Shown one piece after another: positions 1,556 through 18,279 of a stretch of DNA of 23,470 bases (the stretch's first letter is position 1; each line of letters starts with the position of its first letter). The stretch is taken from the IMG/VR virus record IMGVR_UViG_3300015360_000204, positions 1 to 23,470 of that record; one strand, given 5' to 3'. A model generated the notes under the pieces. That model made no database searches and was not told where the DNA came from. It saw nothing but the letters and a program-made list of their open reading frames with translations. The DNA comes from a virus. The position numbers and the translations under genes were made by a program.

Positions 1556-1579
1556 GGCGCTACGCCTGTAGTGCCAGGC
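1556..1579 (+). promoter_or_regulatory. Two mutually exclusive hairpins ahead of the ligase gene
   Basis: GGCGCTAC (1556-1563) pairs with GTAGTGCC (1568-1575), with one G-T pair and a GCCT loop. Alternatively GCCTG (1564-1568) pairs with CAGGC (1575-1579). The two folds share bases and cannot form together. The stretch 1540-1580 is much richer in GC than its surroundings. It has no T-run, so a simple terminator is unlikely; it may be a leader structure or a processing site. Confidence 0.35.
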
Positions 1580-1618
1580 GGGTACTTATCTATTTACTAT
1601 TTCCATAAAGGTAAATCA

Positions 1619-3487
1619 ATGTCATCGCGAATTGCAGAACTTGCTTCAAAAATCTTCAAGGCTCGTCAGGATTATTACAACAGCAACCCAACAGTTAGTG
1701 ATAAAATTTTCGATGCATGGGTCGATGAACTTCGAGCTCTTGATCCAACTAACAGAGCCGTCACTGACATTGGTGCGCCTGTTGCTCCTTCAGAATGGAA
1801 GAAGGCTAAGCATCAGATTCCTATGGGATCTCTTGATAAGGTAAATCAGCCGCATGAACTTACAAAATGGGCTGAGGTTGCATCAAATCAAAAACTGTTT
1901 ATTACAGAAAAGCTTGATGGCATTTCAATTGAAGTAATCTATGAGAATGGTATTGTTAAACAAGCAATTACTCGTGGTGATGGTGAAACTGGCGAAGATA
2001 TTACTTCAAATGTAGTTAAAATGCATGGGGTTGTTCGTAGAACTCATTTCAATTTTAATGGTTCAATTCGTGGTGAAATCATTATGAGGAAGACGAATCA
2101 CAAGAAATATTTTGCTGATAAATCTAATCCGCGTAATGCAGCTTCAGGTACAGCTAAGCGATTGGATGGTATTGGTTCTGAACACCTTAATGTAATCTTT
2201 TACCAAGTAATTGGTGATATTGAGTTCAAGACAGAGAATGATCAATTTGATTGGCTTGATATGCAAGGGTTTCAAACTCCTAATCGTTGGACATCTGCTA
2301 ATGCAGCGGCTGCTTCTAAACATTGGCGTGACTATCAGGATAAGTTCAGGGCAGACCTTGACTATGATATTGATGGTTTGGTTATCCGAATCAATGATAT
2401 GGATTTTCAACAAGCTCTTGGTGATAAAGACATGCGCCCTAAAGGTGCTATCGCTTTTAAGTTTGATAATGAGACTAGGGAATCTGTCATCAAAGATATT
2501 GTCTGGCAGGTTGGCAATAGTGGGCGTCTTACGCCAGTTGCCATAGTTGATCCGGTTGTTCTCGTTGGAGCCGTTGTAATGCGAGCTAGTATCTACAATA
2601 TTGCATATATTGAGGAGCTTGGCATTGATATTAGCGCAACTGTCCTTGTGGCAAGAGCCAACGATGTTATTCCAAGAATTGAATGGGTTGTAAAGGGGAC
2701 TGGCAAGACTCATCAGCCACCAACACATTGCCCTGAATGTGGTCAGCCAGTAGTATTGTCTGGTGAGAATCTGATGTGCTTCAATACTTTGTCATGTCCA
2801 GCTCAAGTGGTTGGAAGGATTAAAAATTGGATTAAGGATCTCAATGTTCTTGAATGGGGCGATACTCTTGTTGAGCGTCTTGTTCAATCAGGTAAGGTTA
2901 CAACAGTAGCAGATCTTTATAAGCTTACTGTAGATGATCTTGCTGTTATTGATCGTATGGGTCAAAAGTCAGCGCAGAAGTGTTATTATACCCTTTGGGC
3001 TGGTGCTGAGGTTCCACTTGAGATTTTCATTGGAGCACTTAGCATTCCTATGATTGGGTCTTCAACAATCAAGCTTATCATGAATGCAGGTTGTGGTACA
3101 CTTGAGAAGTTTGGTCAACTTGGAGCGGCTCAGTTTGAGACTGTTCCTGGTGTTGGACCTGTGAAAGCCAAGTCATTGGCTGATGGATTGGTTTCAAATC
3201 AGCAAGTTATCCTTGATTTGTTGGCAAATGGTGTAAAGATTAAAGGAGTCACTCAGGGTAAACTTACTGGTAAATCGATTTGTTTTACTGGTTCAATGAA
3301 CATCAAGCGACCAATTCTTGAAAAGATGGCGTCTGAAGCTGGCGCAGATGTGAAGGGATCAGTTGGTAAAGGATTGACTTACCTTGTTATAGCTGACCCA
3401 AGTAGCAGTAGTTCCAAAGCTGTTACTGCTAGAAAACTTGGTACTCTGCTGATTTCCGAGCAAGACTTTTTGGATTTGGTGAAGTAA
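1619..3487 (+). CDS. ligA: NAD-dependent DNA ligase
   Basis: Seals nicks with a 3'-OH and 5'-phosphate using NAD+. The ATG at 1619 follows AAAGG at a suitable distance and gives 622 aa, close to bacterial LigA; the upstream GTG at 1571 lies in a hairpin region and is rejected. Domains in order: Ia (about 1-60, RQDYYNSNPTVSD), adenylation domain with catalytic K98 in KLDG and the RGDGETGEDIT motif, OB fold (VGNSGRLTPVAIV), Zn site C371, C374, C387, C393, helix-hairpin-helix repeats (about 440-540), and a C-terminal BRCT domain (about 545-622, ICFTGSM). All key residues are present, so it should be active. Many phages carry shorter ATP ligases; a full LigA with domain Ia and BRCT is less common and suggests acquisition from a bacterium. 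Confidence 0.95.
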   Translation: MSSRIAELASKIFKARQDYYNSNPTVSDKIFDAWVDELRALDPTNRAVTDIGAPVAPSEWKKAKHQIPMGSLDKVNQPHELTKWAEVASNQKLFITEKLDGISIEVIYENGIVKQAITRGDGETGEDITSNVVKMHGVVRRTHFNFNGSIRGEIIMRKTNHKKYFADKSNPRNAASGTAKRLDGIGSEHLNVIFYQVIGDIEFKTENDQFDWLDMQGFQTPNRWTSANAAAASKHWRDYQDKFRADLDYDIDGLVIRINDMDFQQALGDKDMRPKGAIAFKFDNETRESVIKDIVWQVGNSGRLTPVAIVDPVVLVGAVVMRASIYNIAYIEELGIDISATVLVARANDVIPRIEWVVKGTGKTHQPPTHCPECGQPVVLSGENLMCFNTLSCPAQVVGRIKNWIKDLNVLEWGDTLVERLVQSGKVTTVADLYKLTVDDLAVIDRMGQKSAQKCYYTLWAGAEVPLEIFIGALSIPMIGSSTIKLIMNAGCGTLEKFGQLGAAQFETVPGVGPVKAKSLADGLVSNQQVILDLLANGVKIKGVTQGKLTGKSICFTGSMNIKRPILEKMASEAGADVKGSVGKGLTYLVIADPSSSSSKAVTARKLGTLLISEQDFLDLVK

Positions 3488-4115: not shown

Positions 4116-4346
4116 ATGCACGACATATTTTTTGATTTAGAAAACTTACGTAAGACAGTAAATGAAGAGGATGAATCTGATCAAGAATATTGGTTTTTTG
4201 GTCAAAGTTTTACGGATTCAAATCCAGAGACTAAAGAAAAGTCTAAGGGTTGTGTATGTAAGACTTGCAACGAGTTTTCTCCATATGCAGAATCAAATCA
4301 AGAAGATGGCAGTTTTAAATGCTATTCTTGTAAAATGCACGGATAA
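4116..4346 (+). CDS. Small acidic zinc-ribbon protein, function unknown
   Basis: ATG at 4116 follows TTTGGAG, a good ribosome binding site; the in-frame ATG at 4083 overlaps the previous gene and lacks one. The 76-aa product is acidic in its first half (DIFFDLENL, EEDESDQEY) and ends in a ribbon with CVCKTC and, about 18 residues on, CYSC. It could bind nucleic acid or a host protein. I do not recognise the family. It is followed by the hairpin leader of the nuclease gene. Confidence 0.65.
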   Translation: MHDIFFDLENLRKTVNEEDESDQEYWFFGQSFTDSNPETKEKSKGCVCKTCNEFSPYAESNQEDGSFKCYSCKMHG

Positions 4347-4359
4347 TTTCAATGAAACA

Positions 4360-4399
4360 CCCTCCAACGAGGTGGTATATGCCTGTGGAGGGTTCATCA
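4360..4399 (+). promoter_or_regulatory. Hairpin sequestering the ribosome binding site of the nuclease gene
   Basis: CCCTCCA (4363-4369) pairs perfectly with TGGAGGG (4386-4392). The latter is a near-ideal Shine-Dalgarno sequence seven bases before the ATG at 4400. Inside the loop AGGT and GCCT can form a second short stem. A competing pairing, CACC (4360-4363) with GGTG (4376-4379), would free the ribosome binding site. This looks like an on/off translation switch for a potentially toxic nuclease. Regulation is inferred from structure only. Confidence 0.55.
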
Positions 4400-4995
4400 T
4401 GAATAATAATTCAAAATTCGTAATCACACAAGATATCTATGACCGCTGTGTTTCTTTTGCAAATGCATCTGTAGGAACCAGCTCAAATAAATATGCAAGC
4501 CGCAATCAATTTGACGTAGAGAAAATAAAAAAAGATATTCGCAATGGTAAGATTGCTGAGGAAGCAGCTTGGGAAGTCTTATCTAAGAGCTATCCAAATC
4601 TTTCTAAGCCTGACCATTCAATTTATACAGCCAAACAGAAATCTTGGGAGCCTGATTTAACTGATAAGGAAATCCCAATTAGAGTAGCAGTTAAGTCTCA
4701 AGATATCGAATCAGAGATTAATTTTGGCAGATCATGGGTTTTCCAATTTAATAAAACATCAAATTATGATCGCGATACTGGTATTTTTGGTGATGTTGAT
4801 AATAATTATTATGCAATTTTCATATCATTAAATATACCTAAACGTTCTGGTACGATTCAAGCTATAGTAAAAATAAAATGGCTACATGATCATAATTTGT
4901 TTAAACCGATGATAAAAACTAATCTTCAAAATAATAAATTAGCGATTTATTATGATGATTTAGTTAAATTTAAGGATGAACTATGGCAGATTTAA
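4400..4995 (+). CDS. PD-(D/E)XK-like endonuclease, putative
   Basis: The 198-aa product has the layout of small restriction-type nucleases: a helix with acidic pair EEAAWEVL (about 54-61), then EPDL with D86, then RVAVKSQ with K99 and Q101, followed by a phenylalanine/asparagine-rich beta region. The residue two before the Lys is Ala (A97) instead of the usual Asp/Glu, so the metal site is either rearranged or impaired. The start is the ATG after the buried TGGAGGG. The gene overlaps the HNH gene by 13 bp, and a Dam methylase follows, so a restriction-modification-like or DNA-degradation role is possible. Family assignment is by motif layout only. Confidence 0.5.
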
Positions 4996-5513
4996 CTAAA
5001 AAATGTAAGACCTGCGGTATAGCTAAAAATATAAATGATTTTCCTATTCATTCTAAAAATGATTTGAAAATTTATTATAGAACAGAATGTATAATTTGTG
5101 ATGCAATCTATCGTGATAGATATCGAAAATCTAATCCTAGTATAAAAATACGAGAAAATATTTCAAGAAGTATAAATTCACATTTAAAATCTTATAATTC
5201 GACCAAGAATGGCGAAAGTTGTTTAAAACATTTACCATATTCTGTTCAAGAATTAAAGTTACATTTAGAGTCTATATTTGAACCTTGGATGAATTGGTCA
5301 AATTATGGGAAATATGATACAAATTTATGGGATAATAATAATACTTCTACATGGACGTGGCAAATAGATCATATCATTCCACATTCTAATTTTTATTATT
5401 TATCTATGATCGATGAAAGCTTCAAAAAATGCTGGGCTTTGGAAAATTTAAGACCATATTCTGAAAAACAAAATTTACTTGATGGCGTAACGAGGGTTAG
5501 ATATATTAAATAA
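4983..5513 (+). CDS. HNH endonuclease (homing-type)
   Basis: A 176-aa endonuclease. An N-terminal zinc site (C8-x2-C11 and C36-x2-C39) is followed by a basic linker, the helical section KHLPYSVQELKLHLES, and the HNH core with WQIDHIIPHSNF (D129-H130), WALENLRPYSEKQN and a final helix. This pattern is common in free-standing phage HNH homing enzymes, which nick or cut related DNA. All core residues are present. It starts inside the preceding nuclease gene and its TAA shares one base with the ATG of the Dam gene. A second, decayed relative lies at 15529-15958. Confidence 0.85.
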   Translation: MADLTKKCKTCGIAKNINDFPIHSKNDLKIYYRTECIICDAIYRDRYRKSNPSIKIRENISRSINSHLKSYNSTKNGESCLKHLPYSVQELKLHLESIFEPWMNWSNYGKYDTNLWDNNNTSTWTWQIDHIIPHSNFYYLSMIDESFKKCWALENLRPYSEKQNLLDGVTRVRYIK

Positions 5514-6313
5514 TGACAATTAGCCCTTTTAGATATCCAGGCGGAAAGACAAAGATGCTTCCTATATTAATGGAATATCTTGAGCCGATGATAGCTACCT
5601 CTAACAGATTCATTGATGTATTTGTTGGAGGTGGTTCTGTTTTGCTTGAAGTAGCAACCAAGTATCCAAAAATTGAATTGTGTGCCAATGATAAAGATAA
5701 TTGGATTTATTCTTTCTGGAGTGTGGTTAGCGATCCTGATGACCATGACTTCGTTGCTTTATTGAAGTTATTAGATCAGAAACCAACCATAGAGCTATTT
5801 TATAAGTTACGAGAGACGTTTACGTTGGACAAGGTTGAATGTGCCTACAGGGCATTTTTTTTCAATCGCACAGCTTTTTCAGGCATTCTTTCCAGCGGAC
5901 CCATCGGAGGTAAAGATCAGAAGTCAAAATACACAATAGATTGCCGCTATAACGAAAAGAAGTTGAAACAAAAGTTACGAGAGTGTAGATCTTTATTAGT
6001 TGGCAGGACTACAGTTGAGAATAAAGATTTTAGTGATTATGAGCCACTAACCAAATCGCAAGATGCTTGCTATTTAGATCCACCTTACTACATTAAAGGT
6101 GATGCTCTTTATGTTTTCTCTATGAAGCATGAAGAGCATGAAGATTTAGCGATTATTCTTAATTCCAGAAAAAACTGGTTACTGTCTTATGATGATTGCC
6201 CACAGATTAGAAGTCTGTATAGTAATAATGCAATAATTGATTTGGCGGCTAGGTATTCAATTAATGGTAAGAAATCTTCTTGGGAGAAGAAGAATGAGCT
6301 TATCATCAAATGA
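5513..6313 (+). CDS. D12-class DNA adenine N6-methyltransferase (Dam-like)
   Basis: Transfers a methyl group from SAM to the N6 of adenine in DNA. The 266-aa protein carries FRYPGGKTK (residues 6-14, D12 family start), SAM-binding motif I FIDVFVGGGSV (33-43), the AND charged turn (58-60), FFFNRTAFSGI (115-125) and the catalytic DPPYY (189-193). Length and order fit the Dam/MboIIA family, and no key motif is missing. The recognition sequence cannot be read from sequence. It could protect phage DNA from host restriction or from the two nucleases encoded just upstream. Confidence 0.92.
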   Translation: MTISPFRYPGGKTKMLPILMEYLEPMIATSNRFIDVFVGGGSVLLEVATKYPKIELCANDKDNWIYSFWSVVSDPDDHDFVALLKLLDQKPTIELFYKLRETFTLDKVECAYRAFFFNRTAFSGILSSGPIGGKDQKSKYTIDCRYNEKKLKQKLRECRSLLVGRTTVENKDFSDYEPLTKSQDACYLDPPYYIKGDALYVFSMKHEEHEDLAIILNSRKNWLLSYDDCPQIRSLYSNNAIIDLAARYSINGKKSSWEKKNELIIK

Positions 6314-6717
6314 ATGGACCATTGATCTTCCATGAAACGATTAGATTATATACTTTTACAACATCACAAGAGCATGTAGAAGTCACTTATGTTCCAGCCG
6401 CATGGGTTTCTTTATCGGATGATGCCTGCTATTACATTGAACTTTGCATTTATGGAAAAGAATATAGATTGAATTTGTATAATCAATCAACTTGGTTTTA
6501 TTCTGACAAAGTTAAGAAAGCAATAGAGATTCCAAAGAAGATACAACTTTCCAGTGTTGTTACGATTATAAAATCTCCATTTGATTTAGAAATGACATCT
6601 AGTAATTTAGATGAAAAGTATTATGAGTTACCTGAAGAATCTATTGAATTAGAAGTTAGTGTAGATAAAATATTTTTAGCACTAGAAAAGTTAGAAAGAT
6701 TAAGGTTTTTCTTATGA
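6310..6717 (+). CDS. Hypothetical protein
   Basis: 135 aa, ATG overlapping the stop of the methylase gene (ATGA). Beta-strand-rich N-terminal part, one Cys-containing stretch (CYYIELCIYGKEYRL), and a helical, Leu/Glu-rich C-terminus. No motif I can assign. The 4-bp overlaps on both sides make it part of a translationally coupled run from the nuclease genes to 7049. Confidence 0.6.
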   Translation: MNGPLIFHETIRLYTFTTSQEHVEVTYVPAAWVSLSDDACYYIELCIYGKEYRLNLYNQSTWFYSDKVKKAIEIPKKIQLSSVVTIIKSPFDLEMTSSNLDEKYYELPEESIELEVSVDKIFLALEKLERLRFFL

Positions 6718-7049
6718 ATGATGATGAGTTGGAAGAACGTGTTGCAGAATATCCATGTAGAACTTTACATGAAACTGAAAATCTTGATGTAACAGTTGAT
6801 TATGAAAATGGATGCCACTATATTCTTACAAAGAAATTTCACTTTACTATTTGGGAAAGTTACATTGATGTAACACCAAATAGGTCTGGTGTTGTAGATA
6901 CTAATCAATTTATTGAATCTAGCATCCATATAAAAGATATTAGACTTGACATTGGATCTAAATTTTTCTTTAATGATCTAAATTATATTAATGAAGATGA
7001 GATTCTGAAAAAAGTTGAAAAGATTTCCATTTACGTAACCTTTAGTTGA
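6714..7049 (+). CDS. Hypothetical acidic protein
   Basis: 111 aa, acidic, mostly predicted beta structure (DVTVDYENGCHYILTKKFHF), no recognised domain and no signal or membrane segment. The start ATG overlaps the preceding stop by four bases. It may be related in style to the gene before it (both end in a helix rich in Lys/Glu/Leu), but I see no clear sequence match between them. Confidence 0.55.
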   Translation: MNDDELEERVAEYPCRTLHETENLDVTVDYENGCHYILTKKFHFTIWESYIDVTPNRSGVVDTNQFIESSIHIKDIRLDIGSKFFFNDLNYINEDEILKKVEKISIYVTFS

Positions 7050-7062
7050 GATTATAAAAATT

Positions 7063-7254
7063 ATGAGTTAATTTAATACTAGTATCGTTGAAATTATTAA
7101 TATAGAATTAGGTGCATTACCTGAAAAATATAGAGATTTTTACGATGTGCGAGCGAGATATTATGAGTTAGTTGAAGAATTATTCAAAGATAATATTGAG
7201 GATGAAATTATTTGTCCCGATGATATAATTACTCAAACTAAAGATGATTGGTAA
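7063..7254 (+). pseudogene. Small gene with an in-frame TAA at codon 3
   Basis: From ATG 7063 the frame reads Met-Ser-stop (TAA 7069-7071), then stays open for 60 codons, beginning FNTSIVEIINIELGALPEKY, to TAA 7252-7254, which overlaps the next ATG. The body is acidic and helical and looks coding. No other ATG lies early in the frame, so expression needs suppression, an unusual start codon, or the gene is dead. One base change (for example CAA or GAA to TAA) would explain it. Function is unknown. Confidence 0.5.
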
Positions 7255-7553
7255 TGGAAATAATTATTTGTTTATTAGCTATTTTTGGATTGGCGTTTGC
7301 TTTTAAAGAAGCAGATGGTCCTTGGGATAGCATAAGTTTGTTACGCAATAAATTGATGACCAATAAATATGTAGGAGTTTTCTTTTTTCACTTACTGGAA
7401 TGTTACTTCTGTATAGGATTTCATTGCGGTTGGATCGTATACTTGCTCTATTATAAAAATTGGTCATGGAATTTAATAATAATTTGGGGGCTTGCTGGCG
7501 CCGCGTGGAGTCTTATAATGCACTTGCTACTCGACAGAGTAACTAAGGAGTAA
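7254..7553 (+). CDS. Small three-helix membrane protein, DUF1360-like
   Basis: 99 aa from the ATG at 7254 (TAATG overlap with the previous frame). Three hydrophobic segments: about 2-17 (IIICLLAIFGLAFAF), about 40-67 with a conserved-looking ECYFCIGFHCGW, and about 72-92. The Cys-x-x-Cys followed by a Gly/Trp-rich helix resembles the CPYCLGFW-type motif of small phage and bacterial DUF1360 membrane proteins, whose role is unknown. It would sit in the host inner membrane. The family call is tentative. Confidence 0.6.
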   Translation: MEIIICLLAIFGLAFAFKEADGPWDSISLLRNKLMTNKYVGVFFFHLLECYFCIGFHCGWIVYLLYYKNWSWNLIIIWGLAGAAWSLIMHLLLDRVTKE

Positions 7554-7556
7554 GTC

Positions 7557-7751
7557 TTGAAACATTTACTATTTGTGATTTTATTTTCTGGATGCATTGA
7601 AGCTCATACACTCAACTCTAATCCAAAACTATTAGAACCATTGCCCCAATATAGGTTGGTTTGCGGTCCTGTTTTATGTTGTTATTGGTCTGATGGAAAG
7701 ATGGATGGTTGTGTGAATTCACCCAATTATCCAGAACCTTTTCATAGATAA
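7557..7751 (+). CDS. Small secreted or lipid-anchored protein, Cys-rich
   Basis: 64 aa starting at TTG 7557, which lies six bases after a perfect AAGGAG (7545-7550). That spacing decides the start. The N-terminus is a short signal sequence, KHLLFVILFSGC, with a lipobox-like FSGC. The mature part contains CGPVLCCYW and two further Cys/Pro-rich turns, suggesting disulfide bonds in the periplasm. The neighbour just upstream is a membrane protein, so a joint envelope function (for example superinfection exclusion or lysis) is possible but not shown. Confidence 0.6.
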   Translation: MKHLLFVILFSGCIEAHTLNSNPKLLEPLPQYRLVCGPVLCCYWSDGKMDGCVNSPNYPEPFHR

Positions 7752-8005: not shown

Positions 8006-9505
8006 ATGGCTGAAAAATTAGTTGCCTATTCCGCAGGCTCAGAACCTTCCTTCCCTTCAAATTATGATGTGGCAGTTCGTAGGACATTGAATTTCACAGA
8101 CATCACCAGCAACAATAACAAATTCTATAACCTAGAAGTTCAAGTTGGACCCAATGGTGAGTCTCGTATCTTCACTACCTATGGTAGGGTTGGTGGTACA
8201 TCTGCTAGAGAATATCGTATCTGTCGAGATAAATCTCAAGCAGAGATTGAAGCAGACAAGATCATCAAGGCTAAAACCAAAAAAGGCTATGCAGAAGTTA
8301 AACTTCTAAAATCTGAAGTTGGTTCTGAAATTGGTAAATCTAAAGTTGAAGCCTCAAAAGTATCTGTTGATGACCTTCATAAGGTTGGTATTAAGGTTTC
8401 AGAGCCTGAAACTAGCAAACTACATCCTCAAGTTGGTGATCTAGTTAGAACTTGGTTCGGTGTCACTGCTGACTTCGTAGAACTAAACCTTGACACTAAG
8501 AAATGCCCTCTTGGTCAACTATCTCTAGATCAAATCACAAAAGCTAAAGACTTCCTTGAAGAAGCTCGTAAGATGGTTCATAGTAAGAAACCAGATGCTA
8601 CTGAGTTAAATCGGTTAACTAATCTTTACTATTCAAACATCCCCCATAATTTTGGGTATGCGCGTATTAATGCAGATGCGCTTCGTTTTGATACAGATAC
8701 GAAGATCGATCACGCTTTTGATATATTAGATGTCTTTTCTGACGCTAAGAATGTTCAAACTCTTATCTCTAAGAAGAGTCATATTGATTCTCAATATGAT
8801 ACATTAAACTCTAGTATTGACTTTATTGATCCCGCAGATCCAGTTTGGAAATGGATTGATAAGATGGTTCTTGATACAAGGGCAAGCAATCATCATTTCC
8901 TTGGTAAGCTTAAGACTCATAAGGTATTCAAGGTCAATAGGAAAGATGAAGATAAAATCTTCTTGGAGACCGTTGAGAAGATTGCCGGGCAGTGCGGGAA
9001 GCACAACCCATCTAGCGTCTATGCCGGGCTCGTAAAAGATCGTCCCGACCTTTCAAAAGAAGAGCGTATGTTGTATGCTAAGGCAAACGTATGCCCTGGC
9101 TGGCACGGTACTCGTAGAGTTAACATGATCGGTATTACAACTAAAGGTCTTTTAATTAGACCTTCAGGTGTTGTTCACGCTGGAAGTGCATATGGCGACG
9201 GTATTTATTGGGCTACAAATAGTACAAAATCAATGAATTATTGTGATGTGCAAGGATCTTACTGGGCACAAGGCAATAATAAAACAGCCTATCTATTTTT
9301 AGGAGACGTTGCTTATGGTAACTGTAAAATGGTTTCTACATCTGGCTTTTACACAAAATCTAATATAGCTCCTAACCACAGTGTTTGGGCACAAGGTGGT
9401 AAAGGTGGCGTAATTAATGATGAGTTAATCACTTATACTCCAACTGGTAATGGGCAGCAACATAGGCTTCGTTACATTATAGAATTTGAGACGTTAGCCA
9501 AGTAA
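8006..9505 (+). CDS. PARP: WGR domain, regulatory helical domain and ADP-ribosyltransferase
   Basis: Transfers ADP-ribose from NAD+ to a target. At 499 aa it has a full PARP1-3-type C-terminal architecture: WGR domain (about 28-100; YNLEVQVGPNGESRIFTTYGRVG), regulatory helical domain (about 135-265; ELNLDTKKCPLGQLSLDQI matches the NIDTKKMPLGKLS signature), and catalytic domain (about 275-499). The catalytic triad is intact: H367 in GWHGTR, Y401 in GDGIYWA and E473 in NDELITY, the Glu associated with polymer extension. In eukaryotes the WGR domain senses DNA breaks and relieves inhibition by the helical domain. ATG 8006 follows AAGGA. It shares a gene run with macro-domain and NADAR proteins. 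A phage copy with H-Y-E and the regulatory domain retained is notable; the target is unknown. Confidence 0.93.
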   Translation: MAEKLVAYSAGSEPSFPSNYDVAVRRTLNFTDITSNNNKFYNLEVQVGPNGESRIFTTYGRVGGTSAREYRICRDKSQAEIEADKIIKAKTKKGYAEVKLLKSEVGSEIGKSKVEASKVSVDDLHKVGIKVSEPETSKLHPQVGDLVRTWFGVTADFVELNLDTKKCPLGQLSLDQITKAKDFLEEARKMVHSKKPDATELNRLTNLYYSNIPHNFGYARINADALRFDTDTKIDHAFDILDVFSDAKNVQTLISKKSHIDSQYDTLNSSIDFIDPADPVWKWIDKMVLDTRASNHHFLGKLKTHKVFKVNRKDEDKIFLETVEKIAGQCGKHNPSSVYAGLVKDRPDLSKEERMLYAKANVCPGWHGTRRVNMIGITTKGLLIRPSGVVHAGSAYGDGIYWATNSTKSMNYCDVQGSYWAQGNNKTAYLFLGDVAYGNCKMVSTSGFYTKSNIAPNHSVWAQGGKGGVINDELITYTPTGNGQQHRLRYIIEFETLAK

Positions 9506-15528: not shown

Positions 15529-15744
15529 GTGATTTGTGAAAATTGTACAATAAAAGAGAGTATCGAAAAATCTTGTAAAAAACTTTATGATAAAGCGCGT
15601 TACAAAAAAAATAGAGAAAAGATTCTAGCGAAACAAAAAGAATACGCATCTTATCATAAAAACGAAATAATTGAATATCATAAGAAATGGTATATAGAGA
15701 ATAAATCTGTGTTGTTAGTAAGGCATAAATCATATAAAAAATGA
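15529..15744 (+). pseudogene. N-terminal fragment of a decayed HNH endonuclease
   Basis: 71 aa from GTG 15529. CENC at residues 3-6 is half of the usual zinc knuckle. A basic, Tyr/Lys-rich linker follows (KILAKQKEYASYHKNE), as seen in phage HNH homing enzymes. The frame ends at TGA in AAAAAATGA, and the homologous protein continues in the -1 frame (next entry). The start overlaps the remnants of the intergenic stretch and has only a weak ribosome binding site. It could be a separately translated peptide, but a frameshifted HNH is the simpler explanation. Confidence 0.6.
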
Positions 15745-16115
15745 AATATGCTATGGATATCATTTTTAGATTAAAAACAATATGTTCAAGCGCAATTTAT
15801 CAAGCGATGAAAAGCTCTAAAAATGGATCTTCAATTTTAGATTATCTCTCGTATTCAATGCAAGAGTTAAAGCAGCATTTAGAAAATAATTTTGATGATA
15901 AAATGTCTTGGGATAATTATGGAGACTACTGGCAAATAGATCATATTATTCCACAAATCAGAAATGAATTTATGTGTGATAAATGTGATATTCTTATTGC
16001 ATGTTATAATGGAGATGGTAGCGGTGAAACTTATAATTGTATACAATATGCCAAGAAAAATGGTAAAGAAATTATAATTATAGATCCAACAATTTGCAAT
16101 CATCATATAAACTGA
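15741..16115 (+). pseudogene. HNH core fragment fused to the tail of a SLOG-like protein
   Basis: Residues 1-72 continue the HNH enzyme (LSYSMQELKQHLENNF, NYGDYWQIDHIIPQ), closely matching the intact copy at 4983-5513. After IDHIIPQ (about base 15958) the expected HNH C-terminus (the LENLRP...N part) is missing. In its place comes IRNEFMCDKCDILIACYNGD, then SGETYNCIQYAKKNGK and IIIIDP, which resemble the end of a YspA/DprA-like SLOG nucleotide-binding protein. The fusion is in frame, so a 124-aa chimera could be made, but neither domain is complete. It probably arose by a deletion joining an HNH gene to its neighbour. Confidence 0.65.
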
Positions 16116-16994: not shown

Positions 16995-17080
16995 GTTACC
17001 ATGGTGGAATGGCAGACACCGCAGTTTTAGAAGCTGCTGCCCGTTAGGGCGTGGGGGTTCAAGTCCCTCTGGTAACACCA
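16995..17080 (+). tRNA. tRNA-Leu(UAG)
   Basis: Acceptor GTTACCA pairs with TGGTAAC, then A and an encoded CCA. Anticodon stem GCAGT/GCTGC with loop TTTAGAA gives anticodon UAG (reads CUA and possibly other CUN). The long variable arm (TGCCCGTTAGGGCG) marks a class II leucine tRNA; the T-loop is TTCAAGT. It is not an amber suppressor, which would need CUA in the anticodon. Confidence 0.95.
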
Positions 17081-17108
17081 ATAGTTAAGAAAAATATATT
17101 AAAATAAT

Positions 17109-17194
17109 GCTACCTTGATGGAAATGGCGAGACATGTGGGTCTAAGAAGCCCATGCCGAAAGGTGTGAGAGTTCGAATCTCTCAGGTAGTACCA
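17109..17194 (+). tRNA. tRNA-Leu(AAG)
   Basis: Acceptor GCTACCT/AGGTAGT, encoded CCA, long variable arm and TTCGAAT loop. Anticodon stem TGGGT/GCCCA with loop CTAAGAA gives AAG (reads CUU, and CUC if A34 becomes inosine). The D-arm parallels the preceding leucine tRNA, so the two are probably related. A34 leucine tRNAs are unusual in bacteria. Confidence 0.9.
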
Positions 17195-17234
17195 AATTGA
17201 TGAATATATCAATGCTAAGTGATAATGTAAATAT

Positions 17235-17311
17235 GGTGTCGTGAGGGAGCTGGCGAACCCGATTGACTGTGAATCAATTTTTGACGGGATCAAAACCCGT
17301 ACGACACCCCA
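17235..17311 (+). tRNA. tRNA-His(GUG)
   Basis: Acceptor GTGTCGT/ACGACAC with an extra G at -1 facing C73, the histidine identity pair, and encoded CCA. Anticodon stem ATTGA/TCAAT with loop CTGTGAA gives GUG. D-stem GGG/CCC and T-stem ACGGG/CCCGT are complete. Confidence 0.95.
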
Positions 17312-17318
17312 ATACCAT

Positions 17319-17392
17319 GCCTCGTTCGTCTAATGGTAGGACAAAGCCCTTTCAAGGCTTGAACAGGAGATCGATACTCCTACGGGGTACCA
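17319..17392 (+). tRNA. tRNA-Glu(UUC)
   Basis: Acceptor GCCTCGT/ACGGGGT with G-T pairs, encoded CCA. Anticodon stem AAGCC/GGCTT with loop CTTTCAA gives UUC. T-stem AGGAG/CTCCT with loop ATCGATA. Close in form to bacterial tRNA-Glu (TTCGTCTAATGG D-arm). Confidence 0.95.
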
Positions 17393-17428
17393 AAGTAAGG
17401 TGCGGCTATTAGCTGTGCCTCGTGTTTG

Positions 17429-17446
17429 ATAAAGATTTCTCTTTAT
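17429..17446 (+). other. 7-bp hairpin 2 nt upstream of tRNA-Glu(CUC)
   Basis: ATAAAGA pairs with TCTTTAT around TTTC, ending two bases before the tRNA. It sits at the end of a 56-base spacer that holds no gene. Similar leader hairpins precede two other tRNAs in the array. Confidence 0.4.
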
Positions 17447-17448
17447 AT

Positions 17449-17523
17449 GGTCCTATCGACTACTGGCTAGGTCGAGATCCTCTCAAGGTCTAGGAATGAG
17501 ATCGATACTCATTATGATCACCA
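17449..17523 (+). tRNA. tRNA-Glu(CUC)
   Basis: Acceptor GGTCCTA/TATGATC has one C-T mismatch and one G-T pair, then A and encoded CCA. Anticodon stem AGATC/GGTCT with loop CTCTCAA gives CUC (reads GAG). The T-loop ATCGATA is the same as in tRNA-Glu(UUC), pointing to duplication and divergence. Many bacteria read both Glu codons with UUC alone, so a dedicated CUC tRNA is an addition. Confidence 0.85.
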
Positions 17524-17551
17524 TTTCAGAAAGATACATAACCCAAAGTAA

Positions 17552-18076
17552 ATGCAAAAACAAAATACACAAAACAGAATCCGTATAAATAATTTCATTC
17601 GTGTACCACAAGTAAGAGTAATTAATGCAGAAGGTTTATCATTAGGTGTCATGACAGCTAATGAAGCTTTAAAACTAGCCAGAGAGCAAAATTTGGATTT
17701 AATTGAAATTAATCCAAAAGCATCTCCGCCAGTTTGCAAGATAGTAGATTTTGGTAAGTATAAGTATGAAGAGAAAAAGAAGCTTTCTGAAGCTAAGAAA
17801 AATCAGAAAGTATCTGAGTTAAAAGAAATCTCATTCAGACCAAACACTGATGATGGTGACTTAAACCACAAATTAGAATCTGCTAGACAGTTTCTAACTG
17901 ATGGCGATAAAGTGAAATTCACAGTCAAGTTTCGTGGAAGAGAAATTACTCACCCTAAAGTTGGTGAGGATAAACTCAGATGGATTCTAAAAGAGTTATC
18001 TACTCTAATAGCATTTCATACACCACTTTCTTTAGAAGGAAAAGTGATGTCTGTAATGATTAACCCAAAAACATAA
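17552..18076 (+). CDS. infC: Translation initiation factor IF3
   Basis: Binds the 30S subunit, checks start-codon pairing and prevents premature 50S joining. The 174-aa protein has both domains: N-terminal (about 1-80) with IRVPQVRVINAEGLSLGV, LDLIEINPKASPPVCKIVDF and GKYKYEEKKK, matching the IF3 signature ([22 protein letters not shown]); Lys-rich linker; and C-terminal (about 90-174) with KEISFRPNTDDGDLNHKL, GDKVKFTVKFRGREITH. Length is close to the bacterial protein (about 180). It lies inside the tRNA array, 28 bases after tRNA-Glu(CUC) and 33 bases before tRNA-Arg(UCU). It begins with an ordinary ATG, not the AUU used for self-control in Escherichia coli, and lacks a strong ribosome binding site. 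Confidence 0.95.
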   Translation: MQKQNTQNRIRINNFIRVPQVRVINAEGLSLGVMTANEALKLAREQNLDLIEINPKASPPVCKIVDFGKYKYEEKKKLSEAKKNQKVSELKEISFRPNTDDGDLNHKLESARQFLTDGDKVKFTVKFRGREITHPKVGEDKLRWILKELSTLIAFHTPLSLEGKVMSVMINPKT

Positions 18077-18084
18077 ATAATTAC

Positions 18085-18106
18085 ATAGCATATTTCAGTA
18101 TGCTAT
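18085..18106 (+). other. 8-bp hairpin 3 nt upstream of tRNA-Arg(UCU)
   Basis: ATAGCATA pairs with TATGCTAT around TTTCAG, ending three bases before the tRNA, the same stem length, loop size and spacing as the hairpin ahead of tRNA-Leu(UAG). It follows the infC stop and could also end that message. Confidence 0.5.
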
Positions 18107-18109
18107 TAT

Positions 18110-18181
18110 GCCCCTAGAAGCGGCTCTTCTCGTTAGTCTTCTAAACTGACTATCGTGGTTCGACTCCACGTAGGGGTGCCA
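18110..18181 (+). tRNA. tRNA-Arg(UCU), short D-arm
   Basis: Acceptor GCCCCTA/TAGGGGT, G73, encoded CCA. Anticodon stem TTAGT/ACTGA with loop CTTCTAA gives UCU (reads AGA). T-arm CGTGG TTCGACT CCACG is standard. The D-arm is reduced: GAAG/CTTC around only CGGCT, leaving no room for the usual positions 8-9, so the molecule is 72 nt. It may fold atypically but has all other parts. Confidence 0.88.
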
Positions 18182-18202
18182 TTACATTCATATATTTTAT
18201 AT

Positions 18203-18279
18203 GCCCTCGTAGCATAACTGGATAATGCTCTTGACTACGAATCAAACGATTGCAGGTTCAAATCCTGCCGAGGGTACCA
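18203..18279 (+). tRNA. tRNA-Arg(ACG)
   Basis: Acceptor GCCCTCG/CGAGGGT, A73, encoded CCA. Anticodon loop CTACGAA gives ACG (I34 after deamination, reads CGU/CGC/CGA), on a stem of TTGA/TCAA with one C-A mismatch at the top. D-arm and T-arm (GCAGG TTCAAAT CCTGC) are standard. It would need the host adenosine deaminase TadA. Confidence 0.92.

Follow-up and report, generated by a model that had tools for sequence, protein, structure and literature searches.

A gene pair of large phages encoding a PD-(D/E)XK-like protein and an adenine methylase: a probable restriction–modification-like operon with a homing-type HNH gene inserted at its junction

Results

Layout of the locus

The DNA analysed in this study, referred to as the window, is the whole of the 23,470-base virus record IMGVR_UViG_3300015360_000204. 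Three overlapping genes encode a PD-(D/E)XK-like protein (PDK), an HNH enzyme and a DNA adenine methylase (Table 1). A previous sequence-only reading had described them as an overlapping run at 4400–6313. All three plus-strand frames exist and each overlaps the next, the HNH and methylase genes by 1 nt (TAATG, read from the sequence); the limits of the run, however, have to be corrected, as the ATG start of PDK lies at 4399, 1 base before the position given, and 4-nt overlaps lead from the methylase into 6310–6717 and then into 6714–7049, so that the run is longer than was stated. Overlap between neighbouring genes is ordinary in phages, and what goes beyond chance here is the conservation of the PDK–methylase pair, not gene overlap alone. 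A DNA-level search of known phages with window positions 4300–6400 gave no match. In an Rfam scan of the window only tRNAs exceeded the gathering score; six tRNA genes lie at 16995–18279, and among them at 17552–18076 is an ORF that we read as IF-3-like.

Table 1. Features of the PDK–HNH–methylase locus, with positions in the window
Feature	Position	Strand	Description
PDK	4399..4995	+	198 aa, PD-(D/E)XK-fold nuclease-like; from translation, conservation and predicted fold
PDK conserved residues	within 4399..4995	+	E54...D86...A97-V98-K99...Q116
HNH endonuclease gene	4983..5513	+	176 aa, open frame, between PDK and methylase
D12-class N6-adenine DNA methyltransferase	5513..6313	+	266 aa, DPPY motif
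PDK/HNH 13-nt overlap	4983..4995	+	HNH start codon within the last codons of PDK (..CTATGGCAG..)
RNA hairpin before PDK	4359..4393	+	3' arm contains Shine-Dalgarno-like GGAGG

The hairpin before PDK has a stability of −22.4 kcal/mol (z −3.96), which is exceeded by 9 of the 1171 66-nt tiles of the window. Inspection by eye of the region preceding PDK in 17 relatives did not reveal this hairpin; two of them, L096 and L090, have different hairpins at this place (−16.5 and −15.4 kcal/mol, respectively). Possibly the window hairpin serves as a translational brake that would hold back PDK.

PDK has a predicted nuclease fold and an altered active-site motif

The first protein had been taken for a PD-(D/E)XK-like nuclease, and its structure model agrees with this assignment. 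With the AlphaFold model of PDK (mean pLDDT 87.4, pTM 0.86), Foldseek found no PDB match at E≤0.001, the best being DpnI with an E value of 0.049. In a second structure comparison, made with the 598 PDB chains ranked highest by Foldseek, the top chains were NhoI (Z 8.8; 3.3 Å over 122 residues), Eco15I (8.4), I-Ssp6803I (8.3) and DpnI (7.9), and the folds of EcoRV, PvuII and Hjc matched at lower Z; Z was at least 8 in 10 of the 598 chains, values to be read with the caution that scores of 7 to 8 are frequent with this tool for models that have no clear match. The best 50 of the 598 chains comprise restriction enzymes, I-Ssp6803I, Holliday junction resolvases, the influenza PA endonuclease and SPARDA complexes, kinds that presumably all possess a PD-(D/E)XK domain, and because the matches are uniform in kind we accept the fold assignment: PDK is predicted to have the core alpha-beta fold of the superfamily. 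Among predicted viral proteins Foldseek gave 29 matches at ≤0.001, mostly uncharacterised; of the 50 viral matches listed, two carry the name 'Restriction endonuclease' and one 'HNH endonuclease'.

In library searches the window PDK had no counterpart up to an E value of 1 among the families of Pfam, PADLOC and NCBIfam and matched one unnamed PHROGs family weakly (0.012), and a sequence-profile search against solved structures returned nothing meaningful, with two chains at E values of 0.26 and 1.3. When the 23 rows of the PDK alignment were scanned, matches were seen in single members only, namely Pfam DUF7299 in one row (6.6e-4, plus weaker matches), a PADLOC model in one (0.011) and the PHROGs family 'virion structural protein' in one (0.0027).

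This alignment, in which the rows of L110 and L112 are identical and L024 is not included, has E54, D72, D86, K99, Q116, an SWVFQ block and K180 invariant in 23/23 rows. PDK nevertheless departs from the canonical PD-(D/E)XK active site of D followed by (D/E)-x-K: at position 97, in place of the expected D or E, 13 of the 23 rows have A, 7 have G and 3 have H. The alanine that had been noticed in place of the acidic residue before the lysine is real (R95-V96-A97-V98-K99), and as the second acid is missing from every row, catalysis by PDK is not assured. Other residues may complete the metal site, and analogy to Hjc-type enzymes points first to E54. Inspected by eye, the PDK of L024 keeps E, D, K and Q and has H at position 97; since L024 also has the methylase, the idea that a histidine at this position marks PDKs with no methylase was dropped.

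The methylase is of the D12 class and is linked to PDK

The adenine methylase is certain as to class. It matches Pfam PF02086 (D12) with an E value of 5.2e-29 (102.2 bits vs a cut-off of 22) and PHROG phrog_56 with 2.7e-55, its solved relatives are 7m6b, 2dpm (DpnII methyltransferase) and 1yfj/1q0s (DNA adenine methylase), and the DPPY motif is present in 18 of 18 methylases. Its score against the Dam subfamily model TIGR00571, 91.8 bits, is below the curated cut-off of 114.85, and GATC specificity should therefore not be assumed.

Pattern-based scans of viral contigs for PDK gave 7 loci and an alignment-based query gave 28. In 23 of these 28 loci, comparison with the window proteins placed a methylase no more than 0.8 kb downstream of PDK and in the same orientation, which corresponds to the separate, adjacent nuclease and methylase genes of a type II restriction–modification (R-M) system. 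Five loci have no methylase: L002 and L092 stop at the contig end, and in L113, L114 and L115 (phage RM378), all three with divergent PDKs, the absence is real. No PF02086 (D12), PF01555 or PF00145 methylase was found in the records of these three (46, 138 and 130 kb), and PDK can thus exist without a recognised methylase. One further pair, L024, surfaced only among the HNH loci described below, and the PDK scan was therefore not exhaustive. Cellular genome contigs, scanned twice by pattern, yielded no PDK relative, and the 14 records searched for copy number, all chosen for holding PDK, have one PDK match each.

Purifying selection is alike in the two genes, with pS of 0.49–0.85 and pN of 0.10–0.26 across four comparisons of PDK and three of the methylase, the highest pS being near saturation. 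Taken together with the family-wide absence of the second acid, this indicates that the altered motif is an old, maintained property and not the result of decay of the window copy. PDK and the methylase are a conserved gene pair, and from their linkage and the predicted fold we consider an R-M-like reading of the pair to be likely though unproven.

The DNA ligase LigA is encoded near most pairs and a PARP gene near many, and neither was present within roughly 10 kb examined around the pairs of L105, L106 and L110-L112. The corresponding window genes are an NAD-dependent DNA ligase at 1571–3487 (our reading), which adjoins the pair in many relatives, and at 8006–9505 a phage PARP with WGR, regulatory and catalytic domains, which many related loci also have close to the pair. 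The latter is followed by a macro-domain protein, with a match below the cut-off, and by a protein that we read as NADAR-like; these genes possibly form an ADP-ribosylation island.

The HNH gene belongs to a dispersed family

The protein between PDK and the methylase had been called an HNH enzyme, which is upheld by a best PHROG match to 'endonuclease VII' (1.4e-10) and by four residues, D129, H130, N155 and N164, that are invariant in 20/20 rows. It consists of an N-terminal CxxC...CxxC finger and a C-terminal D129-H130...N155...N164 part, and so has the catalytic His and downstream Asn of HNH-type nucleases, the residue roles being our own assignment. A Pfam search with the window protein gave no real match and no HNH model, and HNH_4 was seen in 2 of 7 relatives below the cut-off. 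The structure model (pTM 0.53) resembles PDB entries weakly: 89 chains could be aligned, 21 at a Z of at least 2 and 2 at a Z of at least 5, and the catalytic domain was matched by GVE2 HNH alone (Z 2.5).

The best 80 of 142 HNH relatives were kept, giving 79 loci, mainly in large phage contigs. The PDK–methylase pair is present in 4 of these 79 loci, and in three of the four the HNH gene is reversed and lies beyond the methylase. Twelve records contain 33 HNH matches, distributed over 9 of them and including 10 in one record of 452 kb; in the other three, which may be incomplete and include the 433-kb record of L098 with its pair, none was found. HNH relatives lie downstream of the methylase on the opposite strand in L091, L093 and L102. 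A second, broken copy with three stops in the match is present at window positions 15529–16115, and its frame runs into an unrelated tail with weak SLOG and 'GTP-binding domain' matches. Elsewhere in the genomes of the L099 and L101 records, HNH copies lie no more than about 0.4 kb from other D12-methylase matches, which perhaps reflects a preference for such places, or else chance.

The junction is a patchily occupied site

Nineteen distinct PDK–methylase pairs were compared and their junctions classified by reading the sequences. In 9 of the 19 the two genes meet directly, with a gap between match ends of −4 to +5 nt. An HNH gene lies within the junction in four (the window, L094, L108 and L024), an ORF of about 50 residues resembling a zinc ribbon in two (L091 and L102) and other small ORFs in three (L093, L101 and L099, the last apparently broken), and the L098 junction holds a spacer slightly longer than 100 nt with no evident ORF. 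The HNH frame is broken in two of the four carriers, L108 and L024, where sequencing errors are possible. In L024 HNH genes flank PDK on both sides (5566–6411 and 6945–7587), and it is the downstream one that is frame-broken and whose end overlaps the methylase start.

On a tree of PDK plus methylase the four HNH carriers need 4 changes, 3 of them forced by well-supported branches, a single clade of carriers is rejected (p-AU 0.0009), and the distribution of the HNH label shows no more clustering than that of shuffled labels. This result demonstrates patchiness, and by itself does not separate repeated gain from repeated loss. Ranked by similarity to the window HNH, the L094 copy comes 27th and the L108 copy 63rd of 94, which leans towards separate arrivals. 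The L094 and L108 copies, on the other hand, stand 5th and 8th in each other's rankings of 94, and constraining three junction HNHs to group together gave a likelihood 29.87 units better than the free quick tree (p-AU 0.717), so that some junction HNHs may also have a common origin followed by losses. The HNH gene tree itself (95 rows, 136 columns) lacks resolution and is compatible with one insertion as well as with several.

Presence and absence at one site, dispersed copies and decayed copies are the marks of a free-standing homing endonuclease, and the HNH family displays all three. The HNH gene is not part of the conserved PDK–methylase pair. The sequence-only reading had offered two views of the locus, a three-gene R-M-like set and a homing gene that had entered between a nuclease and its methylase. 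As 15 of the 19 distinct junctions have no HNH, and the search likewise detected none in the 433-kb, possibly incomplete L098 record, the three-gene set as put forward is unsupported. The second view is well supported by the occupancy of 4 of the 19 junctions, the carriers not forming one clade and the dispersed relatives, and we regard it as very probable that a gene of homing type, with putative homing activity, has been inserted here. Relatives in which the genes are unlinked had been named as evidence that would count against the set; they exist for the HNH, and for the pair they are confined to the three divergent loci.

Use of the overlapping start codon

Judged by eye, the methylase of the insert-free loci L090, L096, L110 and L111 starts at an ATG within the last codons of PDK (..tATGgca..). 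The equivalent ATG starts the HNH gene in the window and in L094 and another small ORF in L101, and other overlapping ATGs are used in L108 and L024. In the window, the methylase start sits on the HNH stop codon. Presumably the gene that arrived adopted the existing start signal, and the methylase gained a new overlapping one.

Discussion

In this study, we examined an overlapping gene run in an uncultivated phage, and we favour, with a probability of roughly 0.6, the explanation that it contains a two-gene R-M-like operon of large phages into whose junction an HNH homing-type gene has been inserted. According to this model, the methylase would mark the phage DNA and PDK would cut unmarked DNA, either that of the host chromosome, thereby feeding phage replication, or that of competing phages. 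The HNH gene would be a selfish passenger, which would cut HNH-less genomes at or near the junction and be copied in by repair. It would use the overlapping start codon that belongs to the methylase in some relatives, and through this takeover the methylase would stay coupled behind it. Nuclease activity, sensitivity to methylation and use against host or rivals are all putative properties of PDK. A more far-reaching version of the model is possible but tentative: the pair would represent an undescribed R-M lineage of giant phages with an E-D-(A/G/H)xK-Q active site, serving host takeover or rival exclusion, and the junction would be a repeated landing site for HNH genes at which the operon stays coupled through takeover of the methylase start codon. 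A literature search of titles and abstract openings, its coverage lying mostly outside subscription journals, found no description of the PDK–methylase pair among the entries listed.

The altered active site leaves room for a different and rather less likely explanation, in which PDK is a nuclease of repair, recombination or host-DNA degradation, or a dead DNA-binding protein, and the methylase an orphan shield against host restriction, both being neighbours in a DNA-metabolism operon. This would account for the absence of the second acid in 23/23 rows and for the L113, L114 and RM378 records, in which none of the three methylase families was found; by our reading of the ORFs, the PDKs of L113 and L114 are situated among replication or nucleotide genes, and LigA is close in many loci. 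However, the adjacency of the methylase persists amid different neighbours in L105, L106 and L110-L112, and PDK is under purifying selection comparable to that on the methylase, which speaks against decay of the protein.

The identity of the best structural matches raises another alternative, which we think improbable. PDK and the methylase could be a Dam/MutH-like or DpnI-like pair in which PDK senses methylation for strand discrimination or repair together with the nearby ligase, as the best folds include the methyl-dependent NhoI, Eco15I and DpnI and LigA is near in many loci. Yet EcoRV, PvuII and Hjc folds match as well, at lower Z, MutS_V was found in 0 of 11 related records (which may be incomplete, and hosts could supply the function), and for a DpnI-like enzyme, cutting the mark made by its own partner would be self-harmful. 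Least credible is a three-component set with HNH as the restriction partner of the methylase, as for Hpy99I and its methylase, since the resemblance of the N-terminal finger to part of Hpy99I (Z 6.8, 3.1 Å over 45 residues) and the HNH–methylase overlap in the window are set against 15 of 19 junctions with no HNH, such a methylase in just 4 of 79 HNH loci, and the L098 record, which has the pair and in which no HNH of this family was found.

If the R-M-like operon model is correct, a set of uncultivated large phages would be armed with a compact R-M-like system that goes unrecognised by the family libraries searched in this study, and PDK would offer a departure from the classical catalytic motif that can be tested. 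The junctions would form a natural series, empty, occupied, broken or with other cargo, for studying how a selfish endonuclease enters an overlapping operon and how insertion can avoid silencing the gene behind.

With regard to known viral systems, the R-M genes of chloroviruses and Marseilleviridae likewise place a methylase beside a nuclease on a large dsDNA virus (PMC7019647, PMC7253447), while their hosts are eukaryotic and the nuclease family described here has an altered motif and a putative activity. In chloroviruses the two kinds of gene invariably lie side by side, and a role in host-DNA degradation is ascribed to the packaged nucleases, which are not the cause of virus exclusion (PMC7019647); the marseillevirus R-M system can cut the DNA of viruses lacking it while host DNA is not degraded (PMC7253447). 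Neither role can therefore be assumed for the pair, and by analogy both host-DNA degradation and attack on rival viruses are possible.

PDK shares with PD-(D/E)XK nucleases such as NhoI, Eco15I, DpnI, EcoRV and I-Ssp6803I the predicted fold with E, D and K in place, but differs from them in having no meaningful sequence match in the PDB and A, G or H instead of the second acid. The best PADLOC match of the methylase is PD-Lambda-5_B (1.1e-57), a component of PD-lambda-5, which its discoverers describe as R-M and abortive infection compacted into one system (PMC9519451). That system is defined by components A and B, whereas no component A was detected among five window proteins scanned and PDK, matching no PADLOC family, is not the partner by sequence.

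The window HNH resembles the F-CphI/Endo VII (DHHRN) group in its PHROG endonuclease VII match and in having DH and a distal N. In that group, DHDH lies between CX2-4C and CX2C and some members have no second H (PMC6083498); the window protein instead has DHII, with no CX2C after DH, and because the second histidine is missing it does not conform to the F-CphI motif as given there. A closer parallel in behaviour is offered by the free-standing HNHEs of lactococcal Skunavirus, whose copy number and genome place vary among related phages (PMC12724721), just as copies of the window HNH family vary in number and place among related phages; the window HNH, however, is of another family, with a Zn finger and HNH, its homing is putative, and it is located inside an R-M-like pair. 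The pieces of the locus are of known kinds; as variants, the nuclease family and its active site are new.
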